IMG/VR virus record: IMGVR_UViG_3300017917_000449
Coordinates: 1 to 35,468 of that record
Length of the DNA: 35,468 bases
DNA from: a virus
Strand: one strand, 5' to 3'
How positions within the stretch are numbered: position 1 is the stretch's first letter; every line of letters begins with the position of its first letter. Under the pieces are notes generated by a model. It had not been told where the DNA came from and did not search any database. It saw only the letters and a list, made by a program, of their open reading frames with translations. Shown piece after piece: positions 1,796-20,964 of the stretch. Position numbers and translations under genes: made by a program.

Positions 1796-2005
1796 ATGGA
1801 GCCAGGAGAGATCGACCCCATCAAGTACGGCGCAATGTGGCAGCGCGTGCAGGACATGGACAAGAAGATCGACAAGATGGAAGGCCAGATCGAGCAGCTG
1901 CTCGAGCTCGCCAACAAGAGCAAGGGCGGGCTGTGGGCTGGCATGGCCATCGCGTCTGCGCTGGGCGCTGCCCTGTCCTGGTTGGCCAGTCACTGGAAGG
2001 GGTAA
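1796..2005 (+). CDS. Small coiled-coil/membrane protein, XhlA-like, 69 aa
   Basis: Residues 14-41 (RVQDMDKKIDKMEGQIEQLL) form a heptad-patterned amphipathic helix. A single hydrophobic segment follows at about 45-64 (LWAGMAIASALGAALSWLA), with a short basic tail. Haemolysin XhlA-type lysis accessory proteins have this architecture, and the gene opens a cassette that ends in a holin and endolysin. The start is preceded by GGAGG at 1786-1790. A part in lysis is inferred from context; the sequence itself shows only a membrane-anchored coiled coil. Confidence 0.65.
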   Translation: MEPGEIDPIKYGAMWQRVQDMDKKIDKMEGQIEQLLELANKSKGGLWAGMAIASALGAALSWLASHWKG

Positions 2006-2008
2006 GTC

Positions 2009-2500
2009 ATGGTTGACCCGATCACCGCCTTTGCCGCAGTTCAGTCTGCGGTCAAGATGATCAAGAAGGCATCGGCTGCGGTGGATGACGTGGCCAGCCT
2101 TGGCCCGCTGATCGGGAAATACTTTGACGCCAAGCACGCGGCCACCAAGGCAGCACGCGAGGCCAAGAAGCAAGGCGGCTCCAACATGGGCAAGGCCATC
2201 GAGATCGAGCTCGCGCTCAAGAGCCAACGAGATTTCGAGGAGCAACTCAAGGGGCTGTTCTTCTCGTCCAACAACATGGACATCTGGAACAACATCCAGC
2301 GGCGCGTGGCCGAGATGGATCAAGAGGATCGGCTCGAGGCCGACCGCGAGCGCACGCGCATCCGCAATGCCAAGCGCAGGCAGCAGGAGATCAACGAGTA
2401 CCTGCTGGCCTTTGCCATCGTGACCGTGGTCGGCATCGTGGTTTTGTGGGGCGTCATGGAGGTGGCCGAATACTGCAAGGGTGCCAAATGTGGCCGGTGA
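2009..2500 (+). CDS. Single-pass membrane protein of the lysis region, 163 aa
   Basis: The N-terminal half is Ala/Lys-rich helix (AAVQSAVKMIKKASAAVDD). A charged, Arg/Glu-rich coiled coil at roughly 95-130 follows, then one strong transmembrane segment at about 132-152 (LLAFAIVTVVGIVVLWGVM) and a short tail with two cysteines. GGAAGG precedes the ATG. I do not recognise a family with a known role. Position between the XhlA-like gene and the other small membrane genes suggests lysis or membrane function, but this is not shown by any motif. Confidence 0.7.
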   Translation: MVDPITAFAAVQSAVKMIKKASAAVDDVASLGPLIGKYFDAKHAATKAAREAKKQGGSNMGKAIEIELALKSQRDFEEQLKGLFFSSNNMDIWNNIQRRVAEMDQEDRLEADRERTRIRNAKRRQQEINEYLLAFAIVTVVGIVVLWGVMEVAEYCKGAKCGR

Positions 2501-8229: not shown

Positions 8230-8460
8230 TCAGATGCGGCAGAAGCCTTCAGCGTGGAAGACCTTGAGGCCGCCACGGGGGCCGACGTATGCAACGAGGC
8301 TCTTGACGTAGCCGACGAACTCGTCGCTGACGGTGTTTGTTGCGTGGAAGACGGCGGTGCTGCCGACCATCTCGACGCTGAAGCTGACCGGGCCAAAGCT
8401 GTCTTCGAGGGCCAGCGTGTTGGTCAGTGCTTCGATGCGGGATTGTTGCTTTGCTTGCAT
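8230..8460 (-). CDS. First gene of the leftward early operon, hypothetical, 76 aa
   Basis: The start at 8460 follows AGGAG. The protein reads MQAKQQSRIEALTNTLALED, then beta-rich FGPVSFSVEMVGSTAVFHAT and VSDEFVGYVKSLVAYVGPRG, ending KVFHAEGFCRI. It is probably a small alpha/beta protein and is expressed first from the leftward promoter whose start is covered by a palindromic site. First early genes often act on the host or in regulation, but I see no recognisable motif. Confidence 0.68.
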   Translation of the reverse strand: MQAKQQSRIEALTNTLALEDSFGPVSFSVEMVGSTAVFHATNTVSDEFVGYVKSLVAYVGPRGGLKVFHAEGFCRI

Positions 8461-8487: not shown

Positions 8488-8506
8488 TTGTATCGACGCG
8501 ATACAA
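8488..8506. promoter_or_regulatory. Putative operator, leftward side
   Basis: TTGTATCGACGCGATACAA is a palindrome with 8-bp perfect arms around ACG. It begins just downstream of the predicted leftward transcription start (about 8510). A second copy at 8627-8645 shares the 7-bp arms and the 5-bp spacing. Confidence 0.7.
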
Positions 8507-8618: not shown

Positions 8619-8627
8619 TGCTATGAT
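8619..8627 (+). promoter_or_regulatory. Predicted rightward early promoter, extended -10
   Basis: TGCTATGAT is an extended -10 element (TGn before TATGAT at 8622-8627). No good -35 is visible at the standard distance. The expected start near 8634 falls inside the second palindrome at 8627-8645, so bound protein would block it. Confidence 0.5.
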
Positions 8628-8645
8628 TGTATCGTGTTGATACAA
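8627..8645. promoter_or_regulatory. Putative operator, rightward side
   Basis: TTGTATCGTGTTGATACAA has the same 7-bp arms and 5-bp spacer as the copy at 8488-8506; the centres are 139 bp apart. It covers the predicted rightward start and ends 12 bases before the ATG of the HNH-RHH gene. Confidence 0.7.
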
Positions 8646-8657
8646 CGGAGCCACGAG

Positions 8658-9146
8658 ATGGACAACGCTGAAGACTTGAAGAAGAAACTGTTTTCCGGGG
8701 TGAAGGAGACGGACACAGGCTGCTGGATCAGGGGTGGCGGCAACCCCAACAACTACGCCAGGGTGGTGATTGACGGCGACGCCTACGTCGGACACCGCCT
8801 GTCTTATGAGCTCCACCACGGCCCGATCCCAGACGGGATGGTGGTGATGCACCTGTGCGATGTGCCTGCCTGCATCAACCCCAGCCACCTAAAGGTCGGC
8901 ACGCAGTCCGAGAACACCAAGGACATGTACGACAAAGGCAGGCGAGATGTGTCCGATGCCGTCTGGTCAAAGCCCTTCATGGTGCGCCTGCGCTCGAGCA
9001 CTCGCCAGCTGCTGGACAAAGCGGCCGAAGACCAGCGCAGGTCAAGAGCCAGCATTGTGGACGAGCTCATCCGCGAGGGCCTGCGCCAGCGCTACGCTGA
9101 CGTGAACGACCGCCTGGCCAGGCTGCTGCAGGGAGCGCAGCAATGA
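8658..9146 (+). CDS. HNH endonuclease fused to a ribbon-helix-helix domain, 162 aa
   Basis: The N-terminal half is an HNH_3-type nuclease: YVGHRLSYELHHGPIPDGMV, then HLCDVPACINPSHLKVGTQS with His65, Cys67, Cys72, Asn74 and His77, then ENTKDM. From about residue 104 the sequence changes to a CopG/Arc-like ribbon-helix-helix: strand PFMVRLRSS, helix TRQLLDKAAEDQ, turn RRSR, helix ASIVDELIREGLRQRY. RHH domains bind palindromic operators as dimers. GGAG lies seven bases before the ATG at 8658; an upstream GTG would fall in the operator. The gene is the first of the rightward operon, so self-regulation or site-targeted cutting are both possible. Confidence 0.82.
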   Translation: MDNAEDLKKKLFSGVKETDTGCWIRGGGNPNNYARVVIDGDAYVGHRLSYELHHGPIPDGMVVMHLCDVPACINPSHLKVGTQSENTKDMYDKGRRDVSDAVWSKPFMVRLRSSTRQLLDKAAEDQRRSRASIVDELIREGLRQRYADVNDRLARLLQGAQQ

Positions 9147-9319
9147 CGCACCAGGAGGCCACCAGGCTGCTGGACATGGCCAAGGATGGCCAGCCCATAC
9201 CCGACGAGGTGCTCAACGAGGCGCTGTTCCTGACTGGCGACGGTGCCTGCTGGCGCGACATCCCCTGCCCAGACATCGCTGATTTCGTGCAGGCCATGCG
9301 AGAGGCAGGCCTGCTGTGA
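9143..9319 (+). CDS. Small hypothetical protein, 58 aa
   Basis: This frame starts with ATGA overlapping the HNH-RHH stop and ends with a GTGA overlap to the RuvC-like gene. It encodes MTHQEATRLLDMAKDGQPIP followed by DEVLNEALFLTGDGACWRDI and an acidic/hydrophobic C-terminal helix ending REAGLL. It is predicted helical and soluble. No family is recognised. The tight overlaps on both sides are the main support for its being real. Confidence 0.66.
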   Translation: MTHQEATRLLDMAKDGQPIPDEVLNEALFLTGDGACWRDIPCPDIADFVQAMREAGLL

Positions 9320-10213: not shown

Positions 10214-10677
10214 GAAAGCGCAGCAAGTACAAGCCCAAGGGCGTGCGCCTGGACAACATGGCCTGGATCAAGCAGGGCATGCAGCCCATGCGCGACAACG
10301 AGCACGTCACCAACCTGCGGATCAAGAACCACGCAGCGCTGCTCGACATGGCCCAGGGGCGCGGCAGCCGGGACAGCATCGACGTGCTGATCGCGGCCAT
10401 GAACGTGGCCGAGGCGCTGGCCATCGTGAACTACGACAAGCTGGGCGGGCACTTGCTGCGGGAGATCGACGCCGCCCAGAACGCCCTGGATGCCATGGGC
10501 AAGCGCTCGCTGGCCAAGGGTGTGTTCCGCTTCACCGGCCCTGAACTGCAGGCCATGAACACCGGCATGGAGATCCACGACCAGCAGCTCGACACCTGCA
10601 ACATCGCCGAGCTCGAGCGTGCCATTGTTGTGGTGCAAGAGCACATCCGCAACCGCAAAGCGAGGGCCATCGCATGA
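10210..10677 (+). CDS. Conserved-type phage hypothetical protein, 155 aa
   Basis: The N terminus is very basic (MRKRSKYKPKGVRLDNMAWI) and the rest is helical, with RIKNHAALLDMAQGRGSRDS, LIAAMNVAEALAIVNYD and a C-terminal helix LERAIVVVQEHIRNRKARA. Proteins with this basic start and all-alpha body occur in many proteobacterial phages next to recombination genes, without a known function (recalled). Four-base overlaps link it to both neighbours. Confidence 0.72.
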   Translation: MRKRSKYKPKGVRLDNMAWIKQGMQPMRDNEHVTNLRIKNHAALLDMAQGRGSRDSIDVLIAAMNVAEALAIVNYDKLGGHLLREIDAAQNALDAMGKRSLAKGVFRFTGPELQAMNTGMEIHDQQLDTCNIAELERAIVVVQEHIRNRKARAIA

Positions 10678-11114
10678 GCACACGCCAACCCAAATACGGG
10701 GAGCTGCAGATCGCCAAGCAGCCCAGCGAGGTCAAGGCCATCTGGCACACCCGGGACGAAGAGCTCGAGCCCCTACCCTCATGGCGCTGGTCGTTCGACC
10801 ACCAGACAGACCTCGAGGCCGTCGAGCAGCGCGAGCTGCTTGAGAAAATTCTCGAGTCGGCCGGTATGAACGAGAGAGAGGAGATTGTTCTGCGGATGAT
10901 CACCATGGAGGACTGCACGCTCGAGGAGGCAGGCCAGGTGCTGGGCGTGACCAAAGAACGCGCCAGGCAAATGCACCTGCACGTCCTCCGCAAGCTACGC
11001 AAGGCCCAGTGGCGGCACACCGGCATCGCGCCGTGGCAGGTCTGGAAGGATGTCACCACCTGGACGCACTACAGCTGGCTGCAGCGGCAGATCAGACGGG
11101 AGGCCAAGCAATGA
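10674..11114 (+). CDS. Sigma region 4-like DNA-binding protein, 146 aa
   Basis: Residues 56-112 resemble sigma-70 region 4: LEKILESAGMNEREEIVLRM, MEDCTLEEAGQVLGVTKERA and RQMHLHVLRKLR, which is the helix-turn-helix that reads -35 elements. No region 2 is present, so it is not a complete sigma factor. The C-terminal 34 residues are Trp-rich (WRHTGIAPWQVW, TTWTHYSWLQRQIR). Phage proteins of this kind can redirect host polymerase. It is a good candidate for activating the late promoters at 15157 and 22387, but that link is inference. Confidence 0.75.
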   Translation: MSTRQPKYGELQIAKQPSEVKAIWHTRDEELEPLPSWRWSFDHQTDLEAVEQRELLEKILESAGMNEREEIVLRMITMEDCTLEEAGQVLGVTKERARQMHLHVLRKLRKAQWRHTGIAPWQVWKDVTTWTHYSWLQRQIRREAKQ

Positions 11115-16982: not shown

Positions 16983-18602
16983 ATGGAATACAAAGCACCC
17001 CTGGGCGGCATGCGCCTCAAGCCCGACGAGATCCTCAAGCGCCAAGAGCTCGCCCAACGCAAGAAGGACGAGTTCCAGCAGCTGTATCAGGACGCCTACG
17101 AGTTCGCCCTGCCACAGCGCCAGCTGTACGGCGTCTGGGAGGGCAGCGCCACCGGCATGAAGAAGATGCAGCGCGTCTTCGACTCCACGGCCATCAACAG
17201 CACTCAGCGCTTTGCCAACCGGCTGCAGTCGGTGGTGTTCCCGCCCCAGCGCAAGTGGGCACGCCTGGAGGCCGGCAACGACATCCCGTTCGACCGTCGC
17301 GCCACCACCCAGGCCGTGCTCGAGATCTACGCCGACAAGATGTTCACGGTGCTCAAGCAGAGCAACTTCGACATCGCCATGGGTGAGTTCCTGCTCGACC
17401 TGGCCGTGGGCACCGCCTGCATGATGGTGCAGCCGGGCGACGACGTGAGCCCCATCAACTTCATCCCCGTGCCGCTGTTCCTGGTGAGCTACGAGGAAGG
17501 CGCGAACGGCCAGGTGGACAACGTCTACCGCCGCATGCGGATGAAGGGCGAAAGCATTGAGCGCCAGTGGCCCGACGCCAAGATCCCCGACGAGATGAAG
17601 CGCCGCATCGAGAACAAGCCGACCGAGGACGTCGAGCTCCTCGAGGCCACCATCCACGACCACAAGCGCGGCGACTACTGCTACCACGTCATCGACAAGG
17701 TGTCCAAGCAGGAGATCGTCTACCGCCGCCGCAAGACCAGCCCGTGGGTGATCTCGCGCTACATGAAGGTGGCCGGCGAGATCTACGGCCGGGGCCCGCT
17801 GCTCACGGCCCTGCCCGACATCAAGACGCTCAACAAGACCAAGGAGCTCCTGCTCAAGAACGCCTCGTTGGCCGTGGCCGGTGTATATACAGCCGCCGAC
17901 GATGGCGTGCTCAACCCCAACACGGTCAAGCTGGCCCCGGGCGCAATCATCCCTGTGGCACGCAACGGTGGCCCGCAAGGCCCGGCACTGATGGCCCTGC
18001 CACGCTCTGGCGACTTCAACGTCAGCCAGCTGGTGATCAACGACCTGTCGGCCAACATCAAGCGCATCCTGCTCGACGAGTCGCTGCCGCCTGACAACAT
18101 GAGCGCCCGCTCGGCTACCGAGATCGTGGAGCGCATGAAGGAACTGGCCCAGAACCTGGGCTCTGCCTTCGGCCGACTGATCAACGAGACCATGATCCCG
18201 CTGGTGGCCAAGATCCTTGAGGTCATGGACGAGCGCGGTCTGATCGATATGCCCCTGCGTGTGAACGGCCTGGAGGTCAAGGTTGTGCCGGTGGCACCGC
18301 TGGCCCAGGCCCAGAACATGGAGGAGGTCAACGCGATCATGCAGTTTGCCCAGCTGGTGCCCAACTTCGGCACCGACGGTGCGCTGGCCCTCAAGAACGA
18401 GGTGCTGGTAGACTACCTGGCCGACAAGCTCGGTGTGCCCGCAGCAGTGCGCAACACCAAGGAAGAGCGTGCCGTGCTCATGGAGGAAATGCAGAAGCAG
18501 CAGGACATGGCCGCCATGGCACAAGCGCAGATGGTGCAGGCCGCGCAGGAACAGGGCAACAACAACGACCAGAAACTATTGGAGGCCATCAATGCGGGAT
18601 GA
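16983..18602 (+). CDS. Portal protein (T7-like head-tail connector), 539 aa
   Basis: The dodecameric portal through which DNA enters and leaves. T7 gp8-family features are seen: ILKRQELAQRKKDEFQQLYQ, then DSTAINSTQRFANRLQSVVF PPQRKWARLE, FDIAMGEFLLDLAVGTACMM, SPWVISRYMKVAGEIYGRGP and LLTALPDIKTLNKTKELLLK, followed by RSATEIVERMKELAQNLG SAFGRL. The C terminus is a Gln/Met-rich helix (EEMQKQQDMAAMAQAQMVQA). Length is normal for the family. It follows the terminase and precedes the collagen-like and scaffold genes. Confidence 0.93.
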   Translation: MEYKAPLGGMRLKPDEILKRQELAQRKKDEFQQLYQDAYEFALPQRQLYGVWEGSATGMKKMQRVFDSTAINSTQRFANRLQSVVFPPQRKWARLEAGNDIPFDRRATTQAVLEIYADKMFTVLKQSNFDIAMGEFLLDLAVGTACMMVQPGDDVSPINFIPVPLFLVSYEEGANGQVDNVYRRMRMKGESIERQWPDAKIPDEMKRRIENKPTEDVELLEATIHDHKRGDYCYHVIDKVSKQEIVYRRRKTSPWVISRYMKVAGEIYGRGPLLTALPDIKTLNKTKELLLKNASLAVAGVYTAADDGVLNPNTVKLAPGAIIPVARNGGPQGPALMALPRSGDFNVSQLVINDLSANIKRILLDESLPPDNMSARSATEIVERMKELAQNLGSAFGRLINETMIPLVAKILEVMDERGLIDMPLRVNGLEVKVVPVAPLAQAQNMEEVNAIMQFAQLVPNFGTDGALALKNEVLVDYLADKLGVPAAVRNTKEERAVLMEEMQKQQDMAAMAQAQMVQAAQEQGNNNDQKLLEAINAG

Positions 18603-20964
18603 TGTAGCACGCGCCGCCGCTCTGCGTGCGCTGGAGATCGCACGCGAAGCAAAGGCCATGAAGGCCGAAAAGGGTGAGAAGGGCGACCCCGGCGAGGTGC
18701 GTGTCCTCAACGTCCCGGTGCCAGGCGAGCGTGGCCCCATTGGATCTGTTGGCCCGCGTGGCCCGCAAGGGCCGATGGGCATGCGCGGCGAGAAGGGTGA
18801 CCCCGGCCCACAAGGGCCCAAGGGTGAGCCCGGCCGCGACGGTGCAGATGGCCAGCCTGGTGCTGTCGGCCCGCGAGGTGATCGCGGCATGACTGGCCCT
18901 GTCGGCCCGCAAGGCCCACAAGGCCCGAAAGGCGACATGGGCCCGATGCCCAAGCATGAGCGCAAGGGCCTGATGTTCCGCTTTGAGAAGGCCCCCGGCG
19001 AGTGGGGCGAGTGGATCGTTGTGCCCACTGGCGGTGGCGGCGGTGGCCGCGATGACAAGCTGACTGATCGCCAAAAGGAACTGGTTGCAATCGCCGAGCT
19101 GATCAAGACGCAGGGCGACAACAGCAACAAGTTCATCAAGACGGTGGATGGCGTTCTGCAGTGGGACACGCTGGACGGCTCTGACATTAACCTGTCCAGC
19201 CCGCCTGCCATCGGCAACGTCACTCCCAATGCAGGTACGTTTACTACGCTCACTGCTACGGGTGCGTTGACAAGCAACGGGGCAACTTCTCTTACAAACG
19301 GTTCAGGAAGTCTTGTAATTGACGATGGCGGGGGTTCTGTAAATGCTGTTCGTTTAATTGGTCAAACGGCGTCTCTTGGTCGAAACAGGATTTATTCTCC
19401 AGCGCAGCTTCGCATTTCAACAGGTTCCATAAACTCTATTCGGTTTAACACGGCGGCAACATCGTCTGCTTCTGGTGATGGAAATACGCAATTGTTAGTT
19501 GCTGACACCGCCAGCGCAGTCAACTATGTGCAGGTGACTGGTGCGGCGACTGGTTCGGGGCCTGCTATAACAACGCAAGGTAGTGATACGGACGTTCGGC
19601 TAAACCTTAGCTCAAAAGGAGCGGGTTCAGTTGATGTTTTAACAAATAACACAGGAACTCGACAATTCAGATTTTCTCATACGGCATCTGCCATTAACTA
19701 TCTGCAAGCGGCAGGTTCTGCTGCTGGTTTTGGTTTGCAGTTCTCTGCACAGGGTTCCGACACCAATATCTCGCAAGTCTTCCAATCCAAAGGCACCGGC
19801 GCAATCAACCTCGCTCCCGGTTCCTCTGGTGTGAACATCAGCAACGGCGGGACTGTTACGGCGATTACGAGGACTGCGGCTGGTAGTGGATATACCTCAT
19901 TTCCTTCAGTTGCGATTAGCGCCCCGACCACTGCGGGAGGCGTCCAGGCTACTGGAACAATTACGCAGATGGGCGCAACCCTTGCGACAATTCAATCTGG
20001 AGGTAGTGGATACACAAACGGTGATGTGTTAACTGTTGTAGGCGGAACTCCTGTTTCTGTTGGCGCAACTTATACAGTAACGGCTGTTTCTGGCGGCGTG
20101 ATTACGGCTGTTACTCCGCTTAATTTTGCTACTTACACTGTGCTTCCTACCAGTCCCGTGTCTGTTACAGGCGGTACAGGTAGCGGTGCAACGCTTAACC
20201 TCACTTATTACTTTCCCGGTGTTATTAACATCACCAACGCAGGCAGTGGCTACGTAGAGCAGCCCACGGTGACGTTCTCTGGTGGTGGCGGTAGCGGTGC
20301 TGCTGCTTATGCGACTGTGGGGTCTGGGACGACTGTTCGTAGCCTTGGCGGAACAATGTCTTTCAACACTCCCGGTGGCGAACAATTCCGGATATTGGAC
20401 ATTGCTTCCTCCATTAACTTTTGGCAAGCCAGAGGCGCTTCAGGTAACCCAGCATTTTCTGTTGAAGGCGGGGGAACTAACGTAGCAGGGAACATTTCCT
20501 CCAAAGGCACCGGCGCTCTTAATTTCTTTACGAACGCTTTAAGTCAGCAACAGTTTGCAATCACCCACACAGCCTCTGCCGTGAACTATGTGCAGGTGAC
20601 GGGGGCGGCTACTGGTAACAGGCCAGCAATTACGGCACAAGGCAGTGACACCAACATCGGAATAACGGTGTCATCAAAAGGATCAGGTGTTTTTGCTGTT
20701 TTTACTGATAGCTCTACATTCACCGGGTTTGCTGTCAACCCAAGAGCAGCCAACGGCGACACTTGGATTGAGACTCAACGAAATGTCGGTTTTGTTGACT
20801 TAATTGCAGCCTCTGGCGTGACTGATGGCGACATCCGCTTCACGCCCAAAGGTGCTGGCAGAGTTCGATTCGGAACCTACACAGCCACGGTATCGAGCAT
20901 CACCGGCTACATAGAAATCAAAGACAGTGGCGGCACGGTTCGTCGTCTTGCTGTCGTCGCTTAA
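18592..20964 (+). CDS. Collagen-like repeat virion protein, 790 aa
   Basis: A basic/acidic helix (DDVARAAALRALEIAREAKA) leads into about 90 residues of Gly-X-Y repeats such as GPRGPQGPMGMRGEKGDPGP (about 27-118), which should form a trimeric collagen-like stalk. The rest is beta-rich with several copies of an approximately 50-residue unit (VNYVQVTGAATG, then AQGSDTN, then SSKGSG) and Gly/Thr-rich spacers. The end has FTPKGAGRVRFGTY. The ATG at 18592 has GGAGG and overlaps the portal stop; longer readings enter the portal gene. Such proteins decorate virions or act as adhesive fibres. Bases beyond about 19230 are less GC-rich. Confidence 0.82.
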   Translation: MRDDVARAAALRALEIAREAKAMKAEKGEKGDPGEVRVLNVPVPGERGPIGSVGPRGPQGPMGMRGEKGDPGPQGPKGEPGRDGADGQPGAVGPRGDRGMTGPVGPQGPQGPKGDMGPMPKHERKGLMFRFEKAPGEWGEWIVVPTGGGGGGRDDKLTDRQKELVAIAELIKTQGDNSNKFIKTVDGVLQWDTLDGSDINLSSPPAIGNVTPNAGTFTTLTATGALTSNGATSLTNGSGSLVIDDGGGSVNAVRLIGQTASLGRNRIYSPAQLRISTGSINSIRFNTAATSSASGDGNTQLLVADTASAVNYVQVTGAATGSGPAITTQGSDTDVRLNLSSKGAGSVDVLTNNTGTRQFRFSHTASAINYLQAAGSAAGFGLQFSAQGSDTNISQVFQSKGTGAINLAPGSSGVNISNGGTVTAITRTAAGSGYTSFPSVAISAPTTAGGVQATGTITQMGATLATIQSGGSGYTNGDVLTVVGGTPVSVGATYTVTAVSGGVITAVTPLNFATYTVLPTSPVSVTGGTGSGATLNLTYYFPGVINITNAGSGYVEQPTVTFSGGGGSGAAAYATVGSGTTVRSLGGTMSFNTPGGEQFRILDIASSINFWQARGASGNPAFSVEGGGTNVAGNISSKGTGALNFFTNALSQQQFAITHTASAVNYVQVTGAATGNRPAITAQGSDTNIGITVSSKGSGVFAVFTDSSTFTGFAVNPRAANGDTWIETQRNVGFVDLIAASGVTDGDIRFTPKGAGRVRFGTYTATVSSITGYIEIKDSGGTVRRLAVVA
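19490..20690 (+). repeat. Intragenic repeats encoding an NYVQVTGAATG unit
   Basis: Near-identical stretches at about 19509-19560 (SAVNYVQVTGAATG) and 20572-20625, plus diverged copies at about 19690-19750 (SAINYLQAAGSAAG) and 20402-20450 (SSINFWQARGASG). Each is followed by a GSDTN-like turn and a SSKG(A/T/S)G segment. They look like duplicated beta-repeat modules. Confidence 0.75.

Follow-up and report, generated by a model that had tools for sequence, protein, structure and literature searches.

An HNH nuclease domain joined in frame to a predicted Arc-like ribbon-helix-helix regulator in an uncultured virus contig

Introduction

Why should a phage carry a nuclease domain and a DNA-binding domain in one gene, directly behind a palindromic control region, and what might such a protein do? 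The question is raised by a gene in IMG/VR virus record IMGVR_UViG_3300017917_000449 (35,468 nucleotides), a contig classed as a virus record and analyzed here over its whole length ("the window"). A preliminary description had proposed that this gene joins an HNH nuclease to a CopG-like ribbon-helix-helix (RHH) domain; its open reading frame (ORF), coordinates, and length of 162 amino acids (aa) all proved correct, and profile matches to HNH_3 and to an Arc-like repressor, together with two palindromes, support a nuclease/operator-binding chimera. We conclude that the fusion is genuine, that both of its parts are of known kinds, and that it is the only such chimera found to date. The features of the locus are as follows.

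8230..8460, minus strand: 76-aa gene that opens the divergent leftward operon (ORF call, neighborhood comparison)
8488..8506, no strand assigned: predicted distal operator, TTGTATCGACGCGATACAA, adjoining the leftward operon start
8622..8627, plus strand: candidate −10 box TATGAT (TGC-TATGAT), touching the proximal operator (control-region alignment)
8627..8645, no strand assigned: predicted proximal operator, TTGTATCGTGTTGATACAA, directly preceding the fusion gene
8658..9146, plus strand: HNH-RHH fusion gene, 162 aa plus stop; each domain is single copy in the contig
8658..8942, plus strand: HNH_3 nuclease part, aa 1-95 (Pfam/PHROG, alignment of relatives, model, I-HmuI fold match)
8943..8969, plus strand: linker, aa 96-104 (pLDDT about 49-63; alignment with stand-alone relatives)
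8949..8951, plus strand: possible internal GTG start, which would give a free 65-aa RHH protein, MSDAVWSKPFMVRL...
8970..9143, plus strand: Arc-like RHH part, aa 105-162 (phrog_3431, Arc alignment, identity to stand-alone relatives)
9143..9319, plus strand: next rightward gene, 58 aa, whose start codon overlaps the stop of the fusion (neighborhood comparison)

The closest terminase to that of the contig is from Methylophilales phage MEP301, at 72% identity; the next relatives, in Pelagibacter phage Hodr and BcepC6B-like phages, are about 42% identical. A 58-bp direct repeat at the contig ends (1-58 and 35411-35468) sits inside a repetitive tail-fibre-like gene (KIADSNVTTQ repeats), and the contig is perhaps a circular map, unless assembly closed it across this repeat. 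A long ORF in the structural region (18433-20964), with a collagen-like Gly-X-Y stretch (GEKGDPG...GPQGPKGDMGP), likely encodes a tail fibre, and the rightward operon includes a 146-aa protein (10674-11114) with a σ-factor match (PHROG, E = 1.3e-7).

Results and Discussion

The nuclease half retains its catalytic residues and lacks a helix-turn-helix

Residues 46-87 match Pfam HNH_3 with 51.1 bits (E = 1e-13; cutoff, 24.8 bits), and in PHROG at least 10 HNH/endonuclease families give E values of 0.0025 or lower (top E = 5.5e-28). Conserved HNH residues in the window protein are C22, H46, R47, H65, C67, D68, C72, N74, H77, and N86, including the HNH-type set H65, N74, and H77 with C67 and C72. 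All positions invariant across ten phage HNH relatives are kept (C22, H46, R47, G60, V63, H65, C67, D68, C72, H77, L78, and N86), and the same alignment shows that N74 of the HNH motif is retained; the full HNH_3 motif set proposed earlier, catalytic and zinc residues included, is thus present. Two near-invariant positions are unusual in comparison with the ten relatives: GYG is changed to NYA, and CDN to CDV. In an AlphaFold2 monomer model, aa 1-80 have pLDDT values mostly above 80, and the nuclease half is predicted to adopt the β-β-α nuclease fold; the closest solved fold is I-HmuI (PDB 1u3e; probability, 1.00, but E only 7.6e-3).

Most full-length HNH relatives have a KGR motif followed by a helix-turn-helix (HTH) after the nuclease domain. 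In the window protein, a linker of nine residues, modeled at low confidence, comes after the KGR motif, and the RHH after that (junction, KGRRDVSDAVWSKPFMVRL); we found no C-terminal HTH, NUMOD, or AP2 DNA-binding module, the RHH standing there instead. Free-standing phage HNH_3 endonucleases (T7-group 7.7-like; PHROG 1872/59/826) share the domain and the full catalytic/zinc set but mostly end in an HTH-type C terminus. Judged by alignment, the catalytic set is intact and the HTH is missing; on our preferred reading, this half would most likely have kept its nicking activity. Its best relative is 69% identical over 51 aa, with no close copy found; identity to T7-group members is 50-52% over about 80 aa.

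The RHH half resembles Arc in sequence

Residues 99-151 match phrog_3431, annotated "Arc-like repressor" (E = 1.5e-7). The RHH family profile aligned without gaps to P22 Arc over 43 columns (score, 23.7; maximum of 60 shuffled Arc sequences, 15.2) and scored 20.6 with Mnt (shuffle maximum, 18.3), while CopG gave no significant match. No Pfam RHH model matched the window protein, and the RHH_1, RHH_5, and Arc matches of its stand-alone relatives all lie below the Pfam cutoffs. For both reasons, the lack of a significant CopG match and the subthreshold Pfam matches, the earlier label "CopG-like" should read "Arc-like"; the assignment to RHH itself is supported by the sequence profiles. Two AlphaFold2 monomer models (the whole protein and the RHH alone) show the RHH half as a single long helix with no strand or turn. 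RHH domains are obligate dimers whose sheet forms only in the dimer, so the monomer models neither confirm nor refute the fold.

The RHH part is up to 80% identical over 54 aa to stand-alone proteins in IMG/VR and 38% identical to gp52 of MEP301, a distant isolate relative. Alignment places the linker (aa 96-104) where the stand-alone protein has its few N-terminal residues. On this comparison, the RHH part is the ortholog of the phage group's stand-alone 59- to 64-aa regulator.

Two predicted operators lie in the divergent control region

The intergenic control region upstream of the fusion is 197 bp long and holds two perfect palindromes, TTGTATC-N5-GATACAA, with arms of 7-8 bp. The distal one lies 27 bp upstream of the leftward start codon (8460) and the proximal one 12 bp upstream of the rightward start codon (8658). 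These are the only two sites in the 35.5-kb window within 3 mismatches of TTGTATC-N5-GATACAA, and even TATC-N5-GATA occurs at these two places alone (expected, 0.03); the palindromic control region of the preliminary description is therefore real. Predicted palindromic operators thus lie at the RHH's own promoter.

The control regions of the window and of stand-alone relatives align at the divergent start, including the leader GAACTCCTGTTTCTCGGTGGTT, TATGAT, and the operator positions. Several relatives whose RHH is unfused keep the TATGAT box; a consensus promoter scan did not report it. Of the fetched loci, only five have the exact arms TGTATC-N5-GATACA, always in this control region: the window (L080) and L084, L100, L102, and L103, where they lie upstream of a stand-alone RHH gene. 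Elsewhere the arms have changed together (TATC/GATA, TTGC/GCAA, TAGC/GCTA, TGTC/GACA, CTGC/GCAG, and TACC/GGTA, the comparison being confined to sites with C..G inner ends across a 5-bp spacer).

In 42 regions we counted 32 perfect 5+5+5 palindromes (arm, spacer, arm; in bp) versus 10.9 expected from simple base shuffles; perfect distal 6+5+6 palindromes were found in 23% of 47 regions versus 2.3% of dinucleotide shuffles, and the proximal signal was weaker (36% versus 19% at 5/6 matches), all these counts being nonindependent, as the control regions are related. Covariation of both palindrome arms is hard to obtain otherwise. That the same design, with covarying arms, precedes the stand-alone genes supports the proposal that these are operators, and the shared, covarying sites mean that both are most plausibly attributed to the RHH family rather than to the HNH.

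The regulator is the resident and the nuclease the newcomer

Two IMG/VR scans yielded 142 loci with an RHH relative, some representing the same contig fetched twice, and MEP301 added one more; among these 143 loci are 48 distinct stand-alone RHH sequences. The RHH was unfused to HNH in 143 of 143 loci, the IMG/VR proteins normally being 59-64 aa long, and the window is the sole fetched locus with an HNH in front of the RHH. In the loci of the first scan, the RHH gene is the first of a rightward replication/packaging operon that faces a leftward recombination operon: where the contig reaches, the left strand encodes recT, a recE-like exonuclease, and a resolvase, and the right strand encodes the RHH and then various subsets of the 58-aa gene, a RuvC-like resolvase, a replication protein, and terminase. 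The 58-aa gene is conserved behind many stand-alone RHH genes. In two sister phages an extra gene lies directly behind the stand-alone RHH: a Dcm-like cytosine methyltransferase (L013:5171-6367) and a shorter methyltransferase-like protein (L068:5168-5764), both named by eye from sequence. From these two cases, the RHH gene seems to mark a hot spot for insertions.

Because the RHH stands alone in all relatives found, at the same place in the loci of the first scan and with the same operator design, we regard it as the phage group's resident regulator. By this comparison of loci, the RHH half is the old resident and the HNH half alone is the newcomer. Since the contig has a single RHH copy, the regulator's task must fall to the chimera or to a shortened version of it.

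Free-standing HNH genes are found elsewhere in sister phages, between the exonuclease and the next leftward gene in L013 (2867-3322, minus strand) and between recT and its neighbor in L015, L016, and L018 (L016 copy at 1850-2212, minus strand), so the group has been invaded by such elements. The L016 HNH gene ends shortly past its nuclease domain and has no HTH.

The preliminary description had suggested a search for the same fusion in other phages; two queries of IMG/VR found none, leaving the window fusion a singleton. We also scanned eight HNH proteins from INPHARED, the majority with alignments that extended into the second half, and saw an HTH or nothing recognized there, but no RHH. GTDB genome contigs held no relative, plasmids gave no match, and we found no HNH + RHH or HNH + Arc fusion in the open-access literature. 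Apparent partial fusions in L020-L022 and L075 (tblastn) were rejected, their pre-RHH extension being a chance alignment in the noncoding leader. An intein or intron was likewise set aside, as the insert is N-terminal and would be read as an ordinary nuclease domain.

Alternative readings of the fusion

The chimera could be a repressor that carries its nuclease as a passenger, with the HNH a recent or decaying insert of no useful activity, tolerated by RHH dimerization and binding as an N-terminal extension. The singleton status of the fusion, the changes in GYG and CDN, and the retention of the RHH and both operators all fit such an insert; decay is harder to reconcile with a nuclease fold predicted with high confidence, with the retention of every remaining invariant catalytic and zinc residue, and with a third-position G+C of 0.82 in the HNH frame, which keeps the genome's bias and is inside the range of its other genes. 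We consider an inactive passenger somewhat unlikely. Being known from a single contig, with no independent copy found, the fusion might also have arisen during metagenome assembly, by splicing of another phage's HNH gene into a stand-alone RHH gene. Such an error would need two precise joins, both in frame and about 300 bp from each other; control region and downstream genes both match the phage group, and no close copy of the HNH was found. We judge it very improbable.

The gene may make two products, the HNH-RHH protein from the ATG at 8658 and a free RHH from the GTG at 8949, with the fusion as the selfish enzyme and the short form as the regulator and perhaps as a mixed dimer partner. The GTG has the best Shine-Dalgarno sequence of 16 in-frame starts (−7.1 kcal/mol versus −5.8 at the ATG), and its 65-aa product would resemble the natural 59- to 64-aa proteins. 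A start this strong would fall within nine codons of this position by chance about 3% of the time; the statistics are weak, however, and the Shine-Dalgarno match falls in codons of the conserved KGR motif. That the internal GTG could still make a free repressor is suggestive only, and we think two products unlikely as the account of this gene, while noting that they would be compatible with our preferred explanation.

A proposed autorepressed, homing-capable chimera

We give roughly even odds (about 0.5) to a chimera of the resident Arc-like regulator and an HNH homing-type nuclease that would be autorepressed, operator reading, and capable of homing. The best reading of its origin is that a homing nuclease was either captured in frame by the regulator gene or invaded it. 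An HNH gene, of a sort that phages carry in abundance, would have landed between the regulator's promoter/operator and its coding sequence, fused in frame with the RHH, and lost its own C-terminal HTH. The RHH half, probably dimeric, would still bind both TTGTATC-N5-GATACAA operators and repress both divergent operons, the fusion's own gene included, as expected of the RHH family. The nuclease would thereby be autorepressed, and the DNA-binding half would now serve as an operator reader. In a mixed infection, the nuclease could be brought to the same control region in a related phage whose regulator gene is uninvaded, and copying of the fusion would start there; the RecE/RecT-like genes of the leftward operon might aid the repair step. 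The scheme starts from what the sequence shows (the fusion, a gene order shared with the stand-alone regulator, the family of operators, the intact catalytic residues, and the missing HTH), and it borrows nuclease autorepression and delivery of the HNH by the RHH from I-TevI and the modular phage homing enzymes. Points against it are that the fusion comes from one contig, that GYG and CDN are altered, that the AlphaFold models lack the RHH turn and strand, and that both operators are intact in the phage's own genome, so that self-nicking would have to be avoided in some way.

By these analogies, the nuclease is probably autorepressed and perhaps operator guided. Full operator-guided homing, in which the RHH aims at the regulator's operator in related phages and the enzyme cuts beyond it, spreads, and is repressed at home by the same operator, seems rather doubtful to us. 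It would be self-protecting if the cut falls beyond the operator, at the insertion point where the phage's own copy is interrupted. The preliminary description had offered a targeted homing enzyme, a regulator that keeps a nuclease fold, and a self-limiting nuclease; the first and last both fit our reading and are not mutually exclusive; the second may also apply.

Comparison with known systems

The stand-alone Arc-like regulators of IMG/VR relatives (for example, L082, L084, and L013) share the position, divergent control region, and operator type of the window gene but have no nuclease domain. I-HmuI, like the window protein, has a modular nuclease and DNA-binding design, as do phage homing enzymes more generally (PMC3943268); it is intron encoded, and its DNA-binding domains are other than RHH. 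I-TevI of phage T4 is a homing endonuclease that also represses its own promoter via its DNA-binding part (PMC2988022). It is a precedent for a nuclease doubling as an autorepressor, and it differs in having a GIY-YIG nuclease with a zinc finger and HTH, in being intron borne, and in not being fused to a resident phage regulator. The ShiLan domain is an HNH inside a phage methylase gene, open in the host gene's frame (PMC11855218); that HNH is a separate protein in another frame, whereas the window HNH is a true in-frame N-terminal fusion.

Implications

The covarying arms define an Arc-like two-operator switch in widespread uncultured BcepC6B/MEP301-like phages. A homing endonuclease must have a module that binds DNA, a target, and some means of doing no harm, and fusion to a resident repressor could supply all three together. 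With matched uninvaded relatives at hand, the origin of new homing-enzyme specificities becomes directly testable.
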